Positions 11,229-63,538 of a DNA stretch of 64,000 nucleotides are shown here, one piece after another. The DNA lies in IMG/VR virus record IMGVR_UViG_3300035698_026135, positions 1 to 64,000 of that record; one strand, given 5' to 3'. Source of the DNA: a virus. The notes under the pieces were generated by a model that was not told the origin of the DNA, did not search any database, and worked only from the letters and a program-made list of their open reading frames with translations. A program made the translations under genes and the position numbers. Each line of letters begins with the position of its first letter. Within the stretch, counting starts at the first letter, position 1.

Positions 11229-11583
11229 AAAGTATAATTTTAATATAAGATATTTTCAAGATATAGACTCCTATTATAGATTATATTATTCCGGAAATAA
11301 TAGTTGTTATAAGTTTCTTCATTGGCTTTACGATGACTCGGAATTTTTCCTAAAGAGAAAAAAAGATAAATTTATAAAAAATGAAAAATGGATAAATAAA
11401 AACGCTAGAAGAACTCCACATAGGCGCCCCGTGTGGCAAGTTGGCAAAGAGGGTAAACTCACCACCCTATTTGAGTCAGCGGTTCACATAGAGAGAGCCC
11501 TTGGGATAAAGTATCAAAACATAAGAGCTTGCTGTAATGGGTCACAAAAAACTGCGGGTGGATTTATGTGGGCTTGGGCATGA
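11221..11583 (+). CDS. Stand-alone NUMOD1-like domain protein (120 aa)
   Basis: I chose ATG 11221, with ggagagag upstream, which overlaps the glycosyltransferase stop by 8 nt. The N-terminal part is basic and aromatic (KYNFNIRYFQDIDSYYRLYY) and unrecognised. The C-terminal 50 residues are a full NUMOD1 unit: VWQVGKEGKLTTLFESAVHI then NIRACCNGSQKTAGGFMWAW. No GIY-YIG or HNH residues are present. The stop overlaps the radical SAM gene's ATG (ATGA). It is either a remnant of a homing endonuclease or a DNA-binding module kept without a nuclease. Confidence 0.65.
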   Translation: MSRKYNFNIRYFQDIDSYYRLYYSGNNSCYKFLHWLYDDSEFFLKRKKDKFIKNEKWINKNARRTPHRRPVWQVGKEGKLTTLFESAVHIERALGIKYQNIRACCNGSQKTAGGFMWAWA

Positions 11584-13118
11584 AAAAAATATGTTTAATA
11601 GTTGCCAGGTCAATTTTCCTATTGGATGAGCGAGTTTTTCCCTTTCTTGGAATTCTTCGTTGTGCCGCCTCCTGGGAGAGAGATGGCGCCAAAGTAGACG
11701 TGATTGATCTATCTGGAGTTGAAAATTATTTAGAGGTCTTAGAAGAATATTTTGACCAAAATAAAGATATTGAGTTTGCGGGCGTTACAGCAACCACTCC
11801 ACAAATGAAAAATGCTTACGAAATAGGAAAATTGATAAAAGAAAAATATGGCCACAAGACAGTCATAGGAGGGAGCCATGCAACATTGATGCATACATCA
11901 ATGAAGCAAGAAATAAAGAGGGGCGACTTAGAGGGAAGGGCCAAAAAAGATATTGATTATATTAAAAAGTATTTTGATGTAATTGTCTGCGGCGACGGAG
12001 AACTTGTTCTTGAGGCCATAAGAGAAATAGATAACGGAGTTATTGATGTGGACGACAGATTCTCTCCTTATTTTATGTCTAAGGAGACGTTTTCAGAGTT
12101 ACCAAATCCCGCAAGACACCTGATAGACATGGACAGCTATAAATATACAATTGATGGAGTTTCTGCAACAAGTATGATCTCGCAACTCGGTTGTCCCTAT
12201 CAATGCACGTTTTGCTCGGGGAGAAACTCTCCATACCTTCGAATGGTAAGACAAAGAAGCGTTGGGTCCGTTATTGAAGAGATAGAACTTTTGCACAAGA
12301 CGTATGGATATAAAGCGTTCAACTTCTTTGATGATGAATTGAATTTAACAAAATCTTTTGTTCCGTTAATGAACGGCCTGTCAGACCTACAAGCCAAGCT
12401 TGGGGTAGATTTTAAATTTCGAGGATTTACAAAATCAGAACTTTTCACAAAAGAGCAGGCGAAAGCAATGAAGGCTGCCGGTTTTAGCATTCTTCTTACC
12501 GGATTTGAGTCCGGGGATGATAGAATATTAAAAAACATAAGAAAGCGCGCAACAAGAGATGATAATACTAGGTGTGTAGAAAACGCAAAAGAAGCCGGAC
12601 TTAAAGTTAAGGCACTCATGTCTTGCGGTCACGCTGGCGAAACACCAGAAACAATTGAAAATACTAAAAAGTGGCTTCTTGAGGTAGAGCCCGAAGATTT
12701 CGACTTGACGGTAATTTCAGTTTTTCCTGGATCTCCGTACTTTGATTCGGCCCTCTATAGCAAGGAGGATGATTGTTATATTTACACGCAGCCAGACACT
12801 GGTGACAAATTATATCAAAAAATTGTTGACTATACACAGGAGGCAAATTTTTACAAAGGCATTCCTGGAGAATATGTTTCTTATGTGTGGACCGATTTTA
12901 TGACAGCGGAAGAAATAGTAAAAACTAGAGACGCCCTCGAGTCCGACGTAAGGGCAAAATTAAACATTCCATTTAATCCTTCTGGGGCCACGAGGTCCAT
13001 AGAGCACTCTATGGGATCTAGCAGAAACCTTCCAGACTGGATTCTTCGCTCTAGCGGCGACTATTCCGCTCCCAAGCGAGAGAAGAAAGAAGAGAAGAGG
13101 AGACTTGGCATACTTTAA
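11580..13118 (+). CDS. B12-binding radical SAM enzyme (512 aa)
   Basis: I chose ATG 11580 (ATGA overlap) over GTG 11568. The N-terminal domain looks like the cobalamin-binding fold (VFPFLGILRCAASW, EFAGVTATTPQM, KTVIGGSHATLM), although no DxHxxG motif is apparent. The radical SAM core carries the [4Fe-4S] motif CPYQCTFC (Cys205, Cys209, Cys212), then FNFFDDELNLTKSF and ILLTGFESGDDRIL. Such enzymes methylate unactivated carbons or rearrange sugars and cofactors. In a sugar island, a role in making a modified sugar is plausible but unproven. The C-terminus is a basic tail. Confidence 0.85.
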   Translation: MKKICLIVARSIFLLDERVFPFLGILRCAASWERDGAKVDVIDLSGVENYLEVLEEYFDQNKDIEFAGVTATTPQMKNAYEIGKLIKEKYGHKTVIGGSHATLMHTSMKQEIKRGDLEGRAKKDIDYIKKYFDVIVCGDGELVLEAIREIDNGVIDVDDRFSPYFMSKETFSELPNPARHLIDMDSYKYTIDGVSATSMISQLGCPYQCTFCSGRNSPYLRMVRQRSVGSVIEEIELLHKTYGYKAFNFFDDELNLTKSFVPLMNGLSDLQAKLGVDFKFRGFTKSELFTKEQAKAMKAAGFSILLTGFESGDDRILKNIRKRATRDDNTRCVENAKEAGLKVKALMSCGHAGETPETIENTKKWLLEVEPEDFDLTVISVFPGSPYFDSALYSKEDDCYIYTQPDTGDKLYQKIVDYTQEANFYKGIPGEYVSYVWTDFMTAEEIVKTRDALESDVRAKLNIPFNPSGATRSIEHSMGSSRNLPDWILRSSGDYSAPKREKKEEKRRLGIL

Positions 13119-57317: not shown

Positions 57318-59030
57318 ATGCCAGTCATCCTCAAAGAGTATTATCAGCTCTCCCCAAATAAAGAGACCCTAACAGAAATGAGACAGTCTCTAAGCGAGGG
57401 CAAACCCTTCATCGTAAAGGGTCTCATTCAACGCGCCGATGCACAGAATCAAAATGGAAGAATTTATCCATTCGAAATTCTCAAAAAGGTCTTGGATGGC
57501 TACGACAAAGATTATGTATCGAAAGGTATTGCATTGGGTGAACTCGACCATTGTCTAGCTGGAGATACGGAAGTGTTGACGGAAGATGGCTGGAAAATGC
57601 TTCCAGATGTAGAGGTCGGAGAGAATGTATATTCCTACAAAGAGGGAGAAATCAAACTTGTGCCGGTAACGAAGACTCACAAATTTGCCTATAATGGAAA
57701 AATGATTCGCCTAACCAACGGAAAAAAGATGGATCTACTAATGACCCCTAATCACAGAATGATTTTGTGGGATAGAGATAATAAAGATTACTATATGACA
57801 GCCGAAGATGCAAGAAAGTCATGGAAGACAAAAAGCCCTTCCCTCTCTCATTCTAGCATTAAGTCGTCCGGCGAGTGGAATGACGGAAATAGCGAATCAT
57901 ATTTTGAGATTCCCGATACGGATTATAGAGTTTCGATGAAGGCGTGGGCCGGTTTGATGGGCATATTTTTATCAGATGGACACGTAGAGGGAAGTCGTTC
58001 GGGAAACGTTAGAAACAATAGGGTTACTATTCACCAGAAAAAGGCCGAAAATATATCAAAAATAGAAGAATTGTTGTCGTCGACCGAACTTCCCTGGACT
58101 AAGTTTATTCACGAAAACGGAAAGCATGAGTGGAGCCTTCACAACAAAGGGGTTCATGCTTACTTTTCTCAGTTTGGCAATTCGGAAACCAAGTTTATTC
58201 CAAGGGATCTACTCTTACAAAATAAAGATGTTTTGTCGACCTTGTCAGAATGGCTCCTTGTTGGCGATGGACGAAACAGAATTTCAAAAACCTCGAACTC
58301 CACAAGAGCTATTAAAGAGTATTCGACTGTGTCAACAAGATTGGCTGACGATGTTAGCGAATTGTTTTTCAAATTGGGATATAGGCCCTTCATCAAGACG
58401 GAGATAGCCAAAGAAGATTTGTTGATTGAAGGGAGGGTTGTCAAAAAAGAAAATTGCAAACCTCTCTATACTGTTGCTGGCAACACGACTAGCACATCGC
58501 TGGATGCTCGATTTATAAACTTCGAAGAAATAGAATATGATGATTATGTTTATTGTATTTCGGATGAAAATAAGAACTTTTTAACACGTAGTCCCAATGG
58601 ATATGTTTGCTGGACAGGCAATACCGAAGAGCCCGTTATAGCACTAAAGAATGTCTCCCATAGAATCCTTGAGGTTTGGTGGGAAGGTAAAGATGTGCAT
58701 GGAAAGGTTCAAATTCTGAACACCCCAGCAGGAAAGATCGCCCAAGAGATGACACTAGCAGGAATACCTCTCGGTATTTCATCGAGAGCCGTTGGATCCG
58801 TATCCAAAAACGAGTCTTCTGGTGCCGATATTGTAGAGGATGACCTTCAAATGATTTGTTTCGATCTTGTCGGCACACCATCTACCCACGGCGCCTTCCT
58901 TCACGAGAATCAAAAAGTGCTTAATTCAAAAGCAAAAGAGATTACGGATTTTGATCCAACAAAAGTTTTGCCCGCCAGCGTAAGAGTAAAGCAAACTCTC
59001 GAAGACATCCTGGGCAAAGAAGTAAAATAA
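57318..59030 (+). CDS. 21: Prohead core protease, gp21-like, interrupted by an intein (570 aa precursor, 213 aa after splicing)
   Basis: The exteins (residues 1-78 and 436-570) join into a 213-residue protein, nearly the size of T4 gp21 (212 aa). They show KGLIQRADAQNQNGRIYPFE and the catalytic region GELDH, continuing after the intein with TEEPVIALKNVSHRILEVWW and GIPLGISSRAVGSVSK, then FDLVGTPSTHGAFL. The protease cuts scaffold, capsid and other head proteins during maturation. The intein begins right after the GELDH His, so protease should be inactive until splicing. Neighbours are head genes. Confidence 0.9.
   Translation: MPVILKEYYQLSPNKETLTEMRQSLSEGKPFIVKGLIQRADAQNQNGRIYPFEILKKVLDGYDKDYVSKGIALGELDHCLAGDTEVLTEDGWKMLPDVEVGENVYSYKEGEIKLVPVTKTHKFAYNGKMIRLTNGKKMDLLMTPNHRMILWDRDNKDYYMTAEDARKSWKTKSPSLSHSSIKSSGEWNDGNSESYFEIPDTDYRVSMKAWAGLMGIFLSDGHVEGSRSGNVRNNRVTIHQKKAENISKIEELLSSTELPWTKFIHENGKHEWSLHNKGVHAYFSQFGNSETKFIPRDLLLQNKDVLSTLSEWLLVGDGRNRISKTSNSTRAIKEYSTVSTRLADDVSELFFKLGYRPFIKTEIAKEDLLIEGRVVKKENCKPLYTVAGNTTSTSLDARFINFEEIEYDDYVYCISDENKNFLTRSPNGYVCWTGNTEEPVIALKNVSHRILEVWWEGKDVHGKVQILNTPAGKIAQEMTLAGIPLGISSRAVGSVSKNESSGADIVEDDLQMICFDLVGTPSTHGAFLHENQKVLNSKAKEITDFDPTKVLPASVRVKQTLEDILGKEVK
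57552..58622 (+). mobile_element. Intein with LAGLIDADG-type homing endonuclease domain (357 aa, inside gp21)
   Basis: The block begins at Cys79 (CLAGDTEVLTEDGWKMLPDV, splicing block A), has block B TPNH (LLMTPNHRMIL), two LAGLIDADG-like helices (AGLMGIFLSDGHV and LSEWLLVGDGRNR), and ends with VYCISDENKNFLTRSPNG then YVCWTGN, Asn435. The next residue is Thr436, a valid +1 nucleophile. The penultimate residue is Gly, where His is usual. The endonuclease would cut intein-less gp21 genes. Ends are read by motif. Confidence 0.9.
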
Positions 59031-59062: not shown

Positions 59063-59413
59063 ATGAATATAAAGAAACTATCTTTGTTAATTGAGCGTAT
59101 GGTAGCGAAGCAACTCCAGAAACACCTTAAGCCCATGATCAACGAGGTTCTTGCAGAAAAATACCTCTCTGTGCTTACAGAGCAGAAGGCTCCCGGCCTA
59201 CAGGATTCTTTTCCAGCATACACACAAGAAACCAGGCCCACAACCGCACCTCCCGTAGAAGACGGCAGAAAACAACTACAGGAAAGAAGGGAAGCTTTGA
59301 TAGCGAAGCTTACCGATGGAGACCCAGGAATGGCTATGCTTTATGAGGGTACAAGCGCACTCGACGAAGTTGTCGATGATGATGGCGTTGATATCTCTCG
59401 GTTTGGATTTTAA
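59063..59413 (+). CDS. Head-locus hypothetical protein (116 aa)
   Basis: ATG 59063 follows aaaggaag (59049-59056). The N-terminal helix (MNIKKLSLLIERMVAKQLQK) leads to EVLAEKYLSVLTEQKAPGLQ, a Pro/Thr linker and a C-terminal helix, ending ISRFGF. VLTEQ and LYEGT fit the L-x-E sites cut by gp21-type proteases, so a prohead core protein is likely by place and motif. No family is recognised. Confidence 0.65.
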   Translation: MNIKKLSLLIERMVAKQLQKHLKPMINEVLAEKYLSVLTEQKAPGLQDSFPAYTQETRPTTAPPVEDGRKQLQERREALIAKLTDGDPGMAMLYEGTSALDEVVDDDGVDISRFGF

Positions 59414-59415
59414 TT

Positions 59416-59748
59416 ATGGATAAATTTAATATATTTGGATTTCTTTTTGAGGGTGGAATGTTGAGCGAAGAGGGAGAAGAGGAAGAGCAACCCGAAGCTG
59501 AACCCGAAGCTCCACAACAGCAACAGCAAGCTGAGCCGACACCAGAGAAAAATGCTGAAGTCGTTAGTCCCACGACAAGTCCTTTCGATCAATTTACTGG
59601 AGAAACAATTCAGAATATTGAATTTCAACCACATGAAAATGGTGGAAGTTTTACAATTAAAGTCGCCAACTCGAATTTGCCAATCATTATTAGTTGGGCT
59701 GGCGATCGAGTCACCATGAAGCACAAGGATATTGTCTCACTAACGTAG
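59416..59748 (+). CDS. Head-locus hypothetical protein with acidic/Gln-rich linker (110 aa)
   Basis: The start lies 2 nt after the previous stop. The N-terminus MDKFNIFGFLFEGGMLSEEG contains two L-x-E-type sites (LFEG, LSEE), then a Glu/Pro/Gln-rich stretch, then a beta-rich C-terminal domain (IEFQPHENGGSFTIKVANSN, IIISWAGDRVTMKHKDIVSL). It is probably a small head or prohead protein; function unknown. Confidence 0.65.
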   Translation: MDKFNIFGFLFEGGMLSEEGEEEEQPEAEPEAPQQQQQAEPTPEKNAEVVSPTTSPFDQFTGETIQNIEFQPHENGGSFTIKVANSNLPIIISWAGDRVTMKHKDIVSLT

Positions 59749-59779: not shown

Positions 59780-60865
59780 GTGAAACTGAAGCTTACAGAC
59801 ATTCTGAAGGAATTGGTTGGAGGTCCCAGCCTTCGTCCTCAAGGCCCTTCAGGCGCAAACCAACATCTATTCCCACACCATGGCCTATACGGCAAATTGG
59901 GCGGAGGGAAGCCTAAAGCTTCCAATAAAGCCCCATATAACGATAAGGATTCAGATTTAGAGAACGGCGATAAAATGGCCGACGAAGCACAACCAAAAAT
60001 AGAAGAGCTTCCTTTGGAGAATCTATTTAAATTTACCACATCGGCCAACGATAATACATCGTTTCCTCGTCCTCCAACTATGGGAGCGGGATCAATGGCC
60101 GCATATGGAAAAGACACTAATGCGATCGACTCCTTCGATACGAGCGATGAAGGAAATGAGGAGCGATTCAAGACACTTAAGGGCCGCGAAGACCAAAGAG
60201 CTAAGATTACAGAGCTTGCAGGGGGGAGAGAGAGACACCCTCGCGATGACAATGATTACTCCACCAAGCAAGGCTGGGCCAACGGAATTCCTGGCCGAGA
60301 CAAAAAAGACATCGAAGCTGGTGATTTAAAAGTAGATGAAATGATGAAAGATAGAGCACCCGATGCTGACGCTGGAAAGATCTATAAAAGGATTGTAGGA
60401 GAATCTCATGCTGGCCCACTCAAGGAAGGGGGCGCCGATTCGTCCTTTTCGAGAATGAATTTACAAAAAACGATGAAATCGCCCCAAAGTGATTTAAATT
60501 TTTGGAATATTATTGATAGAGAAAATATATATCTATTAACGAACCCTAACAAAAAGGAAAAGAATGACAAAAGGAAAAGAAGAAAAGTACAGATTGATAA
60601 GAGATTCCACAAAGCGGCTGAGCTAACTCACGTCCCCGTTGTGGCTAAGCACCTAGAAGTGAAAGCAGAAGAGGTGAATGGAGACATTAGAAAACTAATA
60701 AAGAAATTTTGCAAAAAAGTGAGAAGAGAAGAAGTTCTTAAACCATTTTATGGAAAATTGATGCACTATACTCCAAAGTCTGAAATCAAAAGACAGAAAA
60801 AACTGTCTGCGATATATTCTCAGAAAAAGAAGGAAGAAAAAGAAGAAAAGGAAGAAATTTTATAA
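59780..60865 (+). CDS. Head-locus protein with C-terminal bS21-like ribosomal protein domain (361 aa)
   Basis: The start is GTG 59780 (MKLKLTDILKELVGGPSLRP). The first 280 residues are hydrophilic and low in order (LFPHHGLYGKLGGGKPKASN, KFTTSANDNTSFPRPPTMGA), with LKEGG as a possible protease site. Residues about 293-350 resemble ribosomal protein bS21: LEVKAEEVNGDIRKLIKKFC, KKVRREEVLKPFYGKLMHYT, PKSEIKRQKKLSAIYSQKKK, matching bS21's D..L..F + Y.KP(S/T)...+.K..A pattern. Phage-encoded bS21 genes are known from large phages; fusion to a long head-locus protein is unusual. Homology should be tested. Confidence 0.6.
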   Translation: MKLKLTDILKELVGGPSLRPQGPSGANQHLFPHHGLYGKLGGGKPKASNKAPYNDKDSDLENGDKMADEAQPKIEELPLENLFKFTTSANDNTSFPRPPTMGAGSMAAYGKDTNAIDSFDTSDEGNEERFKTLKGREDQRAKITELAGGRERHPRDDNDYSTKQGWANGIPGRDKKDIEAGDLKVDEMMKDRAPDADAGKIYKRIVGESHAGPLKEGGADSSFSRMNLQKTMKSPQSDLNFWNIIDRENIYLLTNPNKKEKNDKRKRRKVQIDKRFHKAAELTHVPVVAKHLEVKAEEVNGDIRKLIKKFCKKVRREEVLKPFYGKLMHYTPKSEIKRQKKLSAIYSQKKKEEKEEKEEIL

Positions 60866-60928: not shown

Positions 60929-61888
60929 ATGGCAAAACGCAATATTCTTCAAGAATCGATTGTTGAAGCAAAACAACTAAAAGAGGCTGCTTACGAAAAT
61001 GCCCAGAGTGTGCTCATGGAGCACTTGAAGGATAATGTAAAGCAGTTTGTTGACGACCAGATTAATGAGTCTCTTCTTACTGAAGCTGACGAGGTTTCCG
61101 ACGCAGATTCATGCGGTGACGATGAAGAAGTACAAGAAGAAGGTTACAACATGGAAGGAGAAGAGGACATGACAGACGATGAACTAGACCTAGAGGAAGT
61201 TCCCGAAGAAGAGGAAGAAGACGAAGAAGAAGAGTGTGGAGAAGACGAGGACGTGTCCGAAGGCTTCAGCGAAGAGGATCTAGAAGAAGCGATTAATGCT
61301 GCTTTGTCAGAAGTAACCCACGGCGGACTCGGAGACATGGATTGGATTGAGAACGATGGCGAGAAACACGGCACCGGGATCGAAGATTTTGATTCGAAAG
61401 AAGACGGATGGGAAAAGAAACGCGCTCCCAAAGCAACCGATGCTAAACTGTACGGTGGCGAGCAATACCACGAGAGTCTCAAAGCGAAGATTGCATCTCT
61501 TGTAAAAGAGAATGTTACGCTTAAAAAGGCTCACAAGAAACTCTCAGAGGCTCTTAGTGAAACAAATCTTTTTAACGCAAAATTGTATTACGCTACACAG
61601 CTAATGCAGAATGAGTCGCTTAACTCAGATATCAAGACCAAGATAATTAAAAAAATGGACAAGGCCACGACTCGAAACGAGGCGAAAGGCATTTATGAGT
61701 CCGTAGAATTTGCTATTGGATTAATGGGTGAATCAAAGAAGACTTCCAAGAAGTCAAAACGTTCACTTTCCGAAGCTTATGGTTCTGAAGGCAAGTCAGC
61801 TGGCACAGGTGCCGGCGTAACAAATACAGCTCTTACTGAGTCGTATATACGTCGCAGCCAAATCCTCGCTGGTATTGTCAAAGAATAA
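60929..61888 (+). CDS. 22: Prohead scaffold/core protein, gp22-like (319 aa)
   Basis: ATG 60929 follows aaaggag. The N-terminus is helical (IVEAKQLKEAAYENAQSVLM), residues about 55-120 are a strongly acidic tract (EEVPEEEEEDEEEECGEDED), and the C-terminal half has the gp22 hallmark: IASLVKENVTLKKAHKKLSE, LFNAKLYYATQLMQNESLNS, IIKKMDKATTRNEAKGIYES. It ends in ALTESYIRRSQILAGIVKE. It forms the core on which the capsid assembles and is degraded by gp21. Confidence 0.85.
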   Translation: MAKRNILQESIVEAKQLKEAAYENAQSVLMEHLKDNVKQFVDDQINESLLTEADEVSDADSCGDDEEVQEEGYNMEGEEDMTDDELDLEEVPEEEEEDEEEECGEDEDVSEGFSEEDLEEAINAALSEVTHGGLGDMDWIENDGEKHGTGIEDFDSKEDGWEKKRAPKATDAKLYGGEQYHESLKAKIASLVKENVTLKKAHKKLSEALSETNLFNAKLYYATQLMQNESLNSDIKTKIIKKMDKATTRNEAKGIYESVEFAIGLMGESKKTSKKSKRSLSEAYGSEGKSAGTGAGVTNTALTESYIRRSQILAGIVKE

Positions 61889-61909: not shown

Positions 61910-63538
61910 ATGAATTTTAAAGAATTAACACAAGATACTCGTAACGAGCGAACTTCACAGTCCGCTATCTCACGAAAGAAAGTTGCCAAATGGCAAAAGA
62001 CAGGTCTTCTCGAAGGCTTAAAGGATGCCCGCACGAAAGCCAATATGGCTCGACTGCTTGAGAATCAGGCGGCATCGATGCTTAATGAGGCATCAGACAC
62101 ATCCGACGTAAAGGGATTTCAGGCTATTGCCTTCCCTATGGTACGTCGTGTTTTCGGCAACCTTTTGGTTGGCGAAATTGCATCGGTTCAGCCGATGGCA
62201 CTTCCATCTGGTCTAGTCTTTTGGCTCGACTTTACACATGGTAGTACCGGAAAGGCTGGTACTGGCCGAGACGACTGGTCATCCGGTGGCTCGGTATTTG
62301 GAGATCCCGTTGGACCTCTTACCGGTGGTGCTGATGGAACTGGAGGTCACTACAACCTTCATAATAGTTATACTCAATTCGAAGCTTCGGCTGCGGTTGG
62401 TCTAGCTTCGTCAGGTTCGGCAACTTGGCTTGAGGTCGAATATGATCTTGAGCTTTCGTCCGCTGTAGCTGGCGACACTCTTTGGAAGGTCACTGTTGAC
62501 CTCGACGAGAATGCTGCAATCACAAATGTGGATCAATCAAACTATAAGAGTTTTGCCATCTCGGGAGCAGTGAACGCAGGTGTCACTCGCTACTACAGAC
62601 GTCACAATTTGTTTGATACTGCCACCAATATCCTAACTGTCTTTTACACTGGTGCCGCTGCGCTCGATTCGGGCTCGGCTGTTCAAGTTGCTTATGTCAA
62701 GAAGGATGTTCTTGGAGCAGATACGAATGGTACAACCTTGAGCCCCGCGTTCGAGTATGCATTTGATAGTGCAGATGACATTCCAGAGATTGATATCAAA
62801 ATTACATCTCATCCGGTCACAGCTAACAGTCGTAAGTTGAAAGTCAAGTGGACTCCAGAAGTCGCGCAGGATCTTAACGCTTATCACACTGTTGACGCTG
62901 AAGCTGAGCTTACTCAGGTGATGGCCGATCAGGTGGCACTCGATATTGATTCCGAGGTACTTCAAGATATGGTCAACAATGCGAAAGCAGCGAAATACTA
63001 CTGGGACCGTCGTCCTGGAACGTATGTCGATAAGGCAACAGGCGTGGAGATCACTGGACCTTCCTTCACGGGTAATGTTCAGGAGTGGTATCTTACTCTC
63101 ATGGAAACAGTCCTTGACGTAAGTAACACGATCCACCGCAAGAACTTGCGCTCAGGAGCTAACTTCATGGTGACATCACCTGACGTAGCAACAATCCTTG
63201 AGTCAATGGTTCAATGGCGTCCTTCGATTGATGTTGGCGATCCAAAGCAAACTAAATACTCGATGGGTATTGAGAAAATTGGTACACTTGCAAACCGTTT
63301 CACGGTCTACAAAGCTCCTTTCTTCTTCCGTAATATGATCCTAGTTGGATTTAAGGGAGACGAGTGGCTTGAGACTGGATACGTCTATGCTCCGTACGTT
63401 CCGATGATCGTTACACCAACGATCTACGAGCCCGATAACTTCACTCCACGCAAGGCGGTCATGACCCGTTATGCGAAACAGATCATCCGTGGTGATTATT
63501 ACGGTCTCGTGGTCGTGAAAGGAATGAATATTTTCTAA
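61910..63538 (+). CDS. 23: Major capsid protein, gp23-like (542 aa)
   Basis: ATG 61910 follows aggaggcaca. The N-terminal region (KWQKTGLLEGLKDARTKANM, then ARLLENQAASMLNEASDTSD) contains candidate L-x-E cleavage sites and the LLENQ motif common to T4-like capsids. Then AIAFPMVRRVFGNLLVGEIA and VQPMALPSGLVFWLDF are conserved, and the C-terminus has YVYAPYVPMIVTPTIYEPDN, FTPRKAVMTRYAKQIIRGDY and YGLVVVKGMNIF. T4 gp23 is 521 residues. It is followed by a strong terminator. Confidence 0.95.
   Translation: MNFKELTQDTRNERTSQSAISRKKVAKWQKTGLLEGLKDARTKANMARLLENQAASMLNEASDTSDVKGFQAIAFPMVRRVFGNLLVGEIASVQPMALPSGLVFWLDFTHGSTGKAGTGRDDWSSGGSVFGDPVGPLTGGADGTGGHYNLHNSYTQFEASAAVGLASSGSATWLEVEYDLELSSAVAGDTLWKVTVDLDENAAITNVDQSNYKSFAISGAVNAGVTRYYRRHNLFDTATNILTVFYTGAAALDSGSAVQVAYVKKDVLGADTNGTTLSPAFEYAFDSADDIPEIDIKITSHPVTANSRKLKVKWTPEVAQDLNAYHTVDAEAELTQVMADQVALDIDSEVLQDMVNNAKAAKYYWDRRPGTYVDKATGVEITGPSFTGNVQEWYLTLMETVLDVSNTIHRKNLRSGANFMVTSPDVATILESMVQWRPSIDVGDPKQTKYSMGIEKIGTLANRFTVYKAPFFFRNMILVGFKGDEWLETGYVYAPYVPMIVTPTIYEPDNFTPRKAVMTRYAKQIIRGDYYGLVVVKGMNIF

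Follow-up and report, generated by a model that had tools for sequence, protein, structure and literature searches.

The window, meaning the whole 64,000-base stretch of DNA analyzed here, is the first part of a 113,329-base virus record and contains a T4-like head cluster consisting of a terminase, a gp20-type portal, a protease, two small open reading frames (ORFs), a 361-amino-acid (aa) ORF, a scaffold-like gene, and a capsid gene. The terminase and portal genes near the 361-aa ORF are T4-like. The gp21-type prohead protease gene (57318 to 59030, plus strand) was recognized by Peptidase_S77 and head-maturation-protease matches and is interrupted by an intein; this 570-aa ORF gave Hint and LAGLIDADG-like matches, and the protease frames of relatives are about 200 aa long. 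Two ORFs follow on the plus strand, one of 116 aa (59063 to 59413), with a weak match (E 0.007) to the gene adjoining bS21 in the related locus L019, and one of 110 aa (59416 to 59748), for which a search of related loci yielded no relative. A gene family starting with MKKSELKxxIKPxxKEC recurs just 5′ of bS21 in related loci, between the protease and capsid genes, and the 116-aa ORF may be a distant member of it. The 361-aa ORF itself (59780 to 60865, plus strand) opens with GTG at 59780, ends with a stop at 60865, and carries a bS21 domain at its C terminus. It is separated by 63 nt from the scaffold-like gene (60929 to 61888, plus strand), which was named by its gp22 position, and the gp23-like major capsid gene (61910 to 63538, plus strand) was assigned by homology, being related to those of LR756508.1, Microcystis phage Mel-JY01, Rhodothermus phage RM378, and Flavobacterium immuto phages. 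The bS21 domain of the window accordingly lies between the gp21-type protease and the capsid gene on the same strand. A preliminary description had placed the ORF between the gp21 and gp22 genes, a location that holds except that the 116- and 110-aa ORFs separate it from the protease. Elsewhere in the window, a radical SAM protein with a B12-binding domain is encoded at 11568 to 13112, and no tRNAs or Rfam families were found. Promoter and terminator scans, which returned weak sites at roughly double the mean of shuffled sequences, were set aside.

The bS21 domain was delimited by profile searches and AlphaFold to residues 293 to 361 (60656 to 60862, plus strand). Pfam PF01165 matches residues 300 to 347 at 17.1 bits when the whole protein is searched and at 20.1 bits with the C-terminal fragment, and a search of the whole 113-kb record returned 20.9 bits (E 3.6e-5). 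The match expected in the preliminary description is therefore present but falls below the curated cut-off of 27 bits, which is also missed by three stand-alone relatives from head cassettes (22.2, 24.8, and 23 bits). A PHROGs search of the 361-aa protein gave no match, whereas 39 of the 42 sequences in alignment A4 match phrog_21469. All 42 members of A4, the window sequence among them, match PF01165 at an E value of ≤0.01, and the A4 profile retrieves the bS21 chains of solved ribosomes with E values down to 6.9e-17. A profile built from 28 head-locus bS21s of related phages, with the window sequence excluded, matches the window protein at about residues 287 to 356 with 42.0 bits (E 4.8e-11). 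Homology was established through these intermediate sequences, and it is they that decide the bS21 identity, PF01165 by itself being no more than suggestive. The bS21-like C terminus first noticed in the translation is thereby upheld, with matches from both the Pfam profile (17 to 21 bits) and the phage profile (42 bits). The nearest relatives by single-sequence search are the bS21s of L041 (E 2e-5) and L046 (E 4e-5); the aligned stretch reads VTVHAEECNGDPEKMVRRFTKKVKREGIIEE in L041 and EVKAEEVNGDIRKLIKKFCKKVRREEVLKP in the window. AlphaFold, applied to residues 261 to 361, predicted helices at 303 to 317, 321 to 326, and 333 to 360, at the positions expected for bS21, with pLDDT values of 91 to 98 over the domain in ten-residue blocks and one exception at 72. 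Foldseek found no match for the domain in the PDB at an E value of ≤0.001, a result that says little for a small, non-globular protein, so the two-helix fold anticipated earlier, with helices predicted in the right places, stays a prediction. Sequence comparison identifies the C-terminal residues, about 70 in number, as a divergent bS21, evidently descended from a head-cassette bS21 gene of T4-like phages.

The N-terminal part is of a different kind. AlphaFold assigned mainly low confidence to the first ~245 residues (pLDDT largely 40 to 57), in agreement with the disordered appearance noted at the outset. No relatives of the full protein were found in IMG/VR, and INPHARED gave chance-level matches only (E 0.8); the C-terminal part alone found nothing in INPHARED even at an E value of 10. 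For the N-terminal ~285 residues, searches of IMG/VR, INPHARED, the record itself, and all ORFs of the related loci turned up neither a relative nor, within the record, a paralogue. Residues 12 to 244 (59813 to 60511, plus strand) are largely predicted to be disordered and gave no relative in homology searches. They are preceded by 11 residues, MKLKLTDILKE (59780 to 59812, plus strand), whose pattern is matched by 26 of the 86 genes lying between the protease and capsid genes and by 11 of the 229 that follow the capsid gene (Fisher P 6.6e-9); this pattern was chosen after viewing the data, many of the matches are orthologues, and similar N termini occur in other genes too. A second set gave 16 of 69 versus 26 of 298 (P 0.0025), and none of 33 stand-alone bS21s starts in this way. 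The motif LKEGG (60419 to 60433, plus strand), which we take to fit the gp21-type cleavage consensus, had been proposed as the point at which the prohead protease releases bS21. One such site was observed and 0.71 is expected in shuffled sequences (P 0.52), and as its frequency is no better than chance, that proposal was dropped.

The link between bS21 and head genes proved firmer than could be known from the letters of the window. Among the best-match loci that span both a gp21-type protease and a major capsid gene, bS21 lies between these two genes in 32 of 48 distinct T4-like cassettes, always on the same strand, and in 11 of those 32 it is within 150 nt of a gp22-like frame. Seven duplicates were removed for this count, and L033 and L115 were both kept though nearly identical. 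Two records fall outside the count because no protease was recognized upstream of their capsid genes: L004 (LR756508.1), in which bS21 immediately precedes the capsid gene, and L005 (phage RM378), which lacks bS21. Among capsid-related IMG/VR records (the best 80 of 595 matches), 30 contain a PF01165 match at an E value of ≤0.05 (24/50 plus 6/30), every one of them upstream of the capsid gene and on its strand. Many of the records without a match end too near the capsid gene to tell; 41 of these 80 extend 3.5 kb or more upstream of it, and 20 of the 41 have bS21 within 4 kb. Two further sets of loci were drawn from bS21 matches (the best 80 of 210 and the best 80 of 166), and because only best matches were taken as loci, the samples lean towards the queries. 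Distances between bS21s correlate with those between capsid proteins in 32 sequences (Mantel r 0.45, reached in 0 of 5,000 permutations), which would fit long residence in the cassette over recent capture. What is firmly established is that a bS21 domain is encoded in a head cassette, a position that bS21 often occupies in related phages too. Given the 32 of 48 cassettes, the correlated distances, and the short frames described below, the domain is a head-cassette gene by inheritance, read in the window as fused to its upstream neighbor.

This fusion is the part that would be new, and it is a single, unverified case read from sequence. A census comprised 149 distinct bS21 frames from 216 sources, with six short loci that repeat others (L001 and L008 to L012) omitted, and removal of five frames touching a locus end left 144 complete frames. 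Measured from stop to stop, 143 of these are 59 to 174 aa long, and the window frame, at 373 aa, is the sole long one. The small stand-alone size (about 60 to 100 aa) is not seen in the window, where the long frame is possibly a sequence artefact. An A/G-rich stretch lies just before the bS21 domain, and if its length is off by a single base, through misassembly or because the sequenced copy was mutated, then a head-locus gene of about 270 aa and a normal stand-alone bS21 gene that in truth overlap have been joined, and no fused protein exists. We consider this unlikely, though a live alternative to the long protein proposed in the preliminary description, which the sequence presents as one frame but as a single case in 144. 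Besides the census, it draws on an AAGGA (60554 to 60558) that precedes by five bases an out-of-frame ATG at 60564, where a stand-alone bS21 would begin; this ATG opens 20 codons to a stop in the +1 frame (60554 to 60626 including the AAGGA, plus strand) and could be the gene's own start or a relic of one. As out-of-frame pairs of this kind occur about 0.4 times per kb of coding DNA here, one within the ~150-nt linker is roughly a 6% event. Stand-alone relatives start with a similar basic N terminus, and genes of 200 to 330 aa often precede bS21 in relatives. However, no frame-switching pair was found between the window and its 595 matching ORFs of relatives, and over the same 20 codons the +1 frame has a codon score of 0.07 versus 0.20 for the fusion frame. 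When codons are scored in 33-codon windows, the fusion frame ranks first in 21 of 22, with its weakest stretch at about residues 226 to 258; codon statistics are nevertheless unable to tell a true fusion from a one-base difference. No in-frame internal start with a clear ribosome-binding site was found for a separate bS21. No Shine-Dalgarno-like site precedes the GTG start, whereas many window genes have one, and the N terminus is therefore uncertain. Searches for a second copy of the phage, in IMG/VR and with a 22-base exact pattern, found none. In our judgment the fused ORF is probably a true feature of the genome, and some of that probability may belong to a fusion that arose recently by mutation, with the former start surviving as a relic. 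If real, it is the only long-extended bS21 among the 144 complete frames compared.

By analogy with published phage bS21s, the most likely role of the domain is that of a late ribosomal protein. We lean towards a head-cassette bS21, read fused with its upstream gene, that is made late and binds the host 30S subunit. The shared frame would yield a bS21 with an extension of about 290 mostly disordered residues, and to judge from its position the protein would probably be made late, together with the capsid proteins. It would dock near the anti-Shine-Dalgarno sequence in place of the host bS21, exchanging into 30S subunits during bulk capsid synthesis, and ribosomes carrying it may keep or favor late phage messages. 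A phage bS21 has been found incorporated into Escherichia coli ribosomes (PMC6375957). Counted against this reading are the missed PF01165 cut-off, the silence of PHROGs, the empty Foldseek search, and a bS21 profile score below those of all other frames; the fusion seen once, the GTG without a ribosome-binding site, and the out-of-frame start before the domain count likewise, as does the finding, in the same report, that ribosomes with this phage bS21 are nearly inactive in E. coli translation in vitro (about 5%; PMC6375957). The domain might instead have lost its ribosomal role and now serve as the basic, nucleic-acid-binding tail of a core protein, which we judge quite improbable. Its profile score is the lowest among the 149 distinct frames, the usual YEKPS-type motif reads YTPKS, and residues 263 to 361 have a net charge of +15; yet its mean distance to other bS21s (0.78) is no outlier, being exceeded in 4 of 32, and core positions such as F310 are conserved.

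Packaging into the virion is possible, the one hint being the head-locus-type N terminus. The protein might be a head protein first, with an N terminus that leads into the prohead core and a basic bS21 domain packaged with the DNA, so that it meets the ribosomes of the next host early. The gene sits between the protease and the scaffold-like gene, its N terminus is of the type enriched between the protease and capsid genes in both sets of loci, and T4 internal proteins reach the core by way of a short capsid targeting sequence (PMC3012670). Against these points, the N-terminal pattern is post hoc, with many orthologous matches and similar N termini elsewhere, and LKEGG occurs at chance level. 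Since the stand-alone bS21s of relatives lack such an N terminus, packaging would be private to the phage of the window, and we hold it very improbable. To the fuller version, in which a head-targeting N terminus and a disordered spacer bring bS21 into the prohead and the next host's ribosomes are re-tuned upon DNA entry, we give the least credence of all. If the fusion is real, it would raise the question of whether ribosomal proteins can be packaged by a virus. For the late ribosomal role, in turn, the presence of bS21 in the cassette and distances that track those of the capsid mean that the idea of ribosomes being tuned for making capsid can be tested directly in cultured relatives.

Tyr346 of the window protein (60815 to 60817) seems equivalent, as judged by eye, to Tyr54 of bS21, which has been linked to anti-Shine-Dalgarno blocking in Flavobacteriia (PMC9723584). 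Tyrosine occupies this position in 4 of 42 aligned sequences, the window included. A Flavobacteriia host was considered on this basis, and no host is claimed because many window genes have Shine-Dalgarno-like sites. Among the other bS21s, that of L002 (4653 to 4829) is only 59 aa long, with most of the second helix region missing, and the longest other complete frame (L210, 2351 to 2872) encodes 174 aa and ends in a long basic tail.

Plastid bS21 is cellular and likewise places the domain behind a long N-terminal stretch, part of which may be a transit peptide. The stretch is shorter than in the window: plastid chains in solved ribosomes (e.g., 5mmj and 4v61) are 137 to 190 aa long, with 41 to 94 residues before the domain. 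An N-terminal extension is therefore no bar in itself. No bS21 domain is known in the T4 internal head proteins. These may resemble the window protein in having a short N-terminal element, a basic character, and a head context, a likeness that indicates a possibility only (PMC3012670). The S21 of pelagimyophages is described as lying outside any specific gene cluster (PMC7029224), and that of Pelagibacter phage HTVC008M, also phage-borne and shown to enter ribosomes, is, unlike that of the window, stand-alone as described (PMC6375957). A limited literature search for S21 with prohead protease found nothing related apart from the work of Chen et al. 2022 on freshwater phages, which reports late-expressed bS21 in the neighborhood of terminase, portal, protease, and capsid genes; the terms fused, fusion, extension, and extended are absent from its main text (PMC9723584). 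In those phages bS21 is on the opposite strand, whereas in the window it shares the strand of the head genes (PMC9723584). By the present comparison, many T4-like phages have bS21 within their core head cassette, on the strand that encodes the scaffold and capsid. Microcystis phage Mel-JY01 (PP395634.1, annotated RpsU) likewise has bS21 between the prohead protease and capsid genes on the same strand, there as a stand-alone protein of 75 aa, unlike that of the window.
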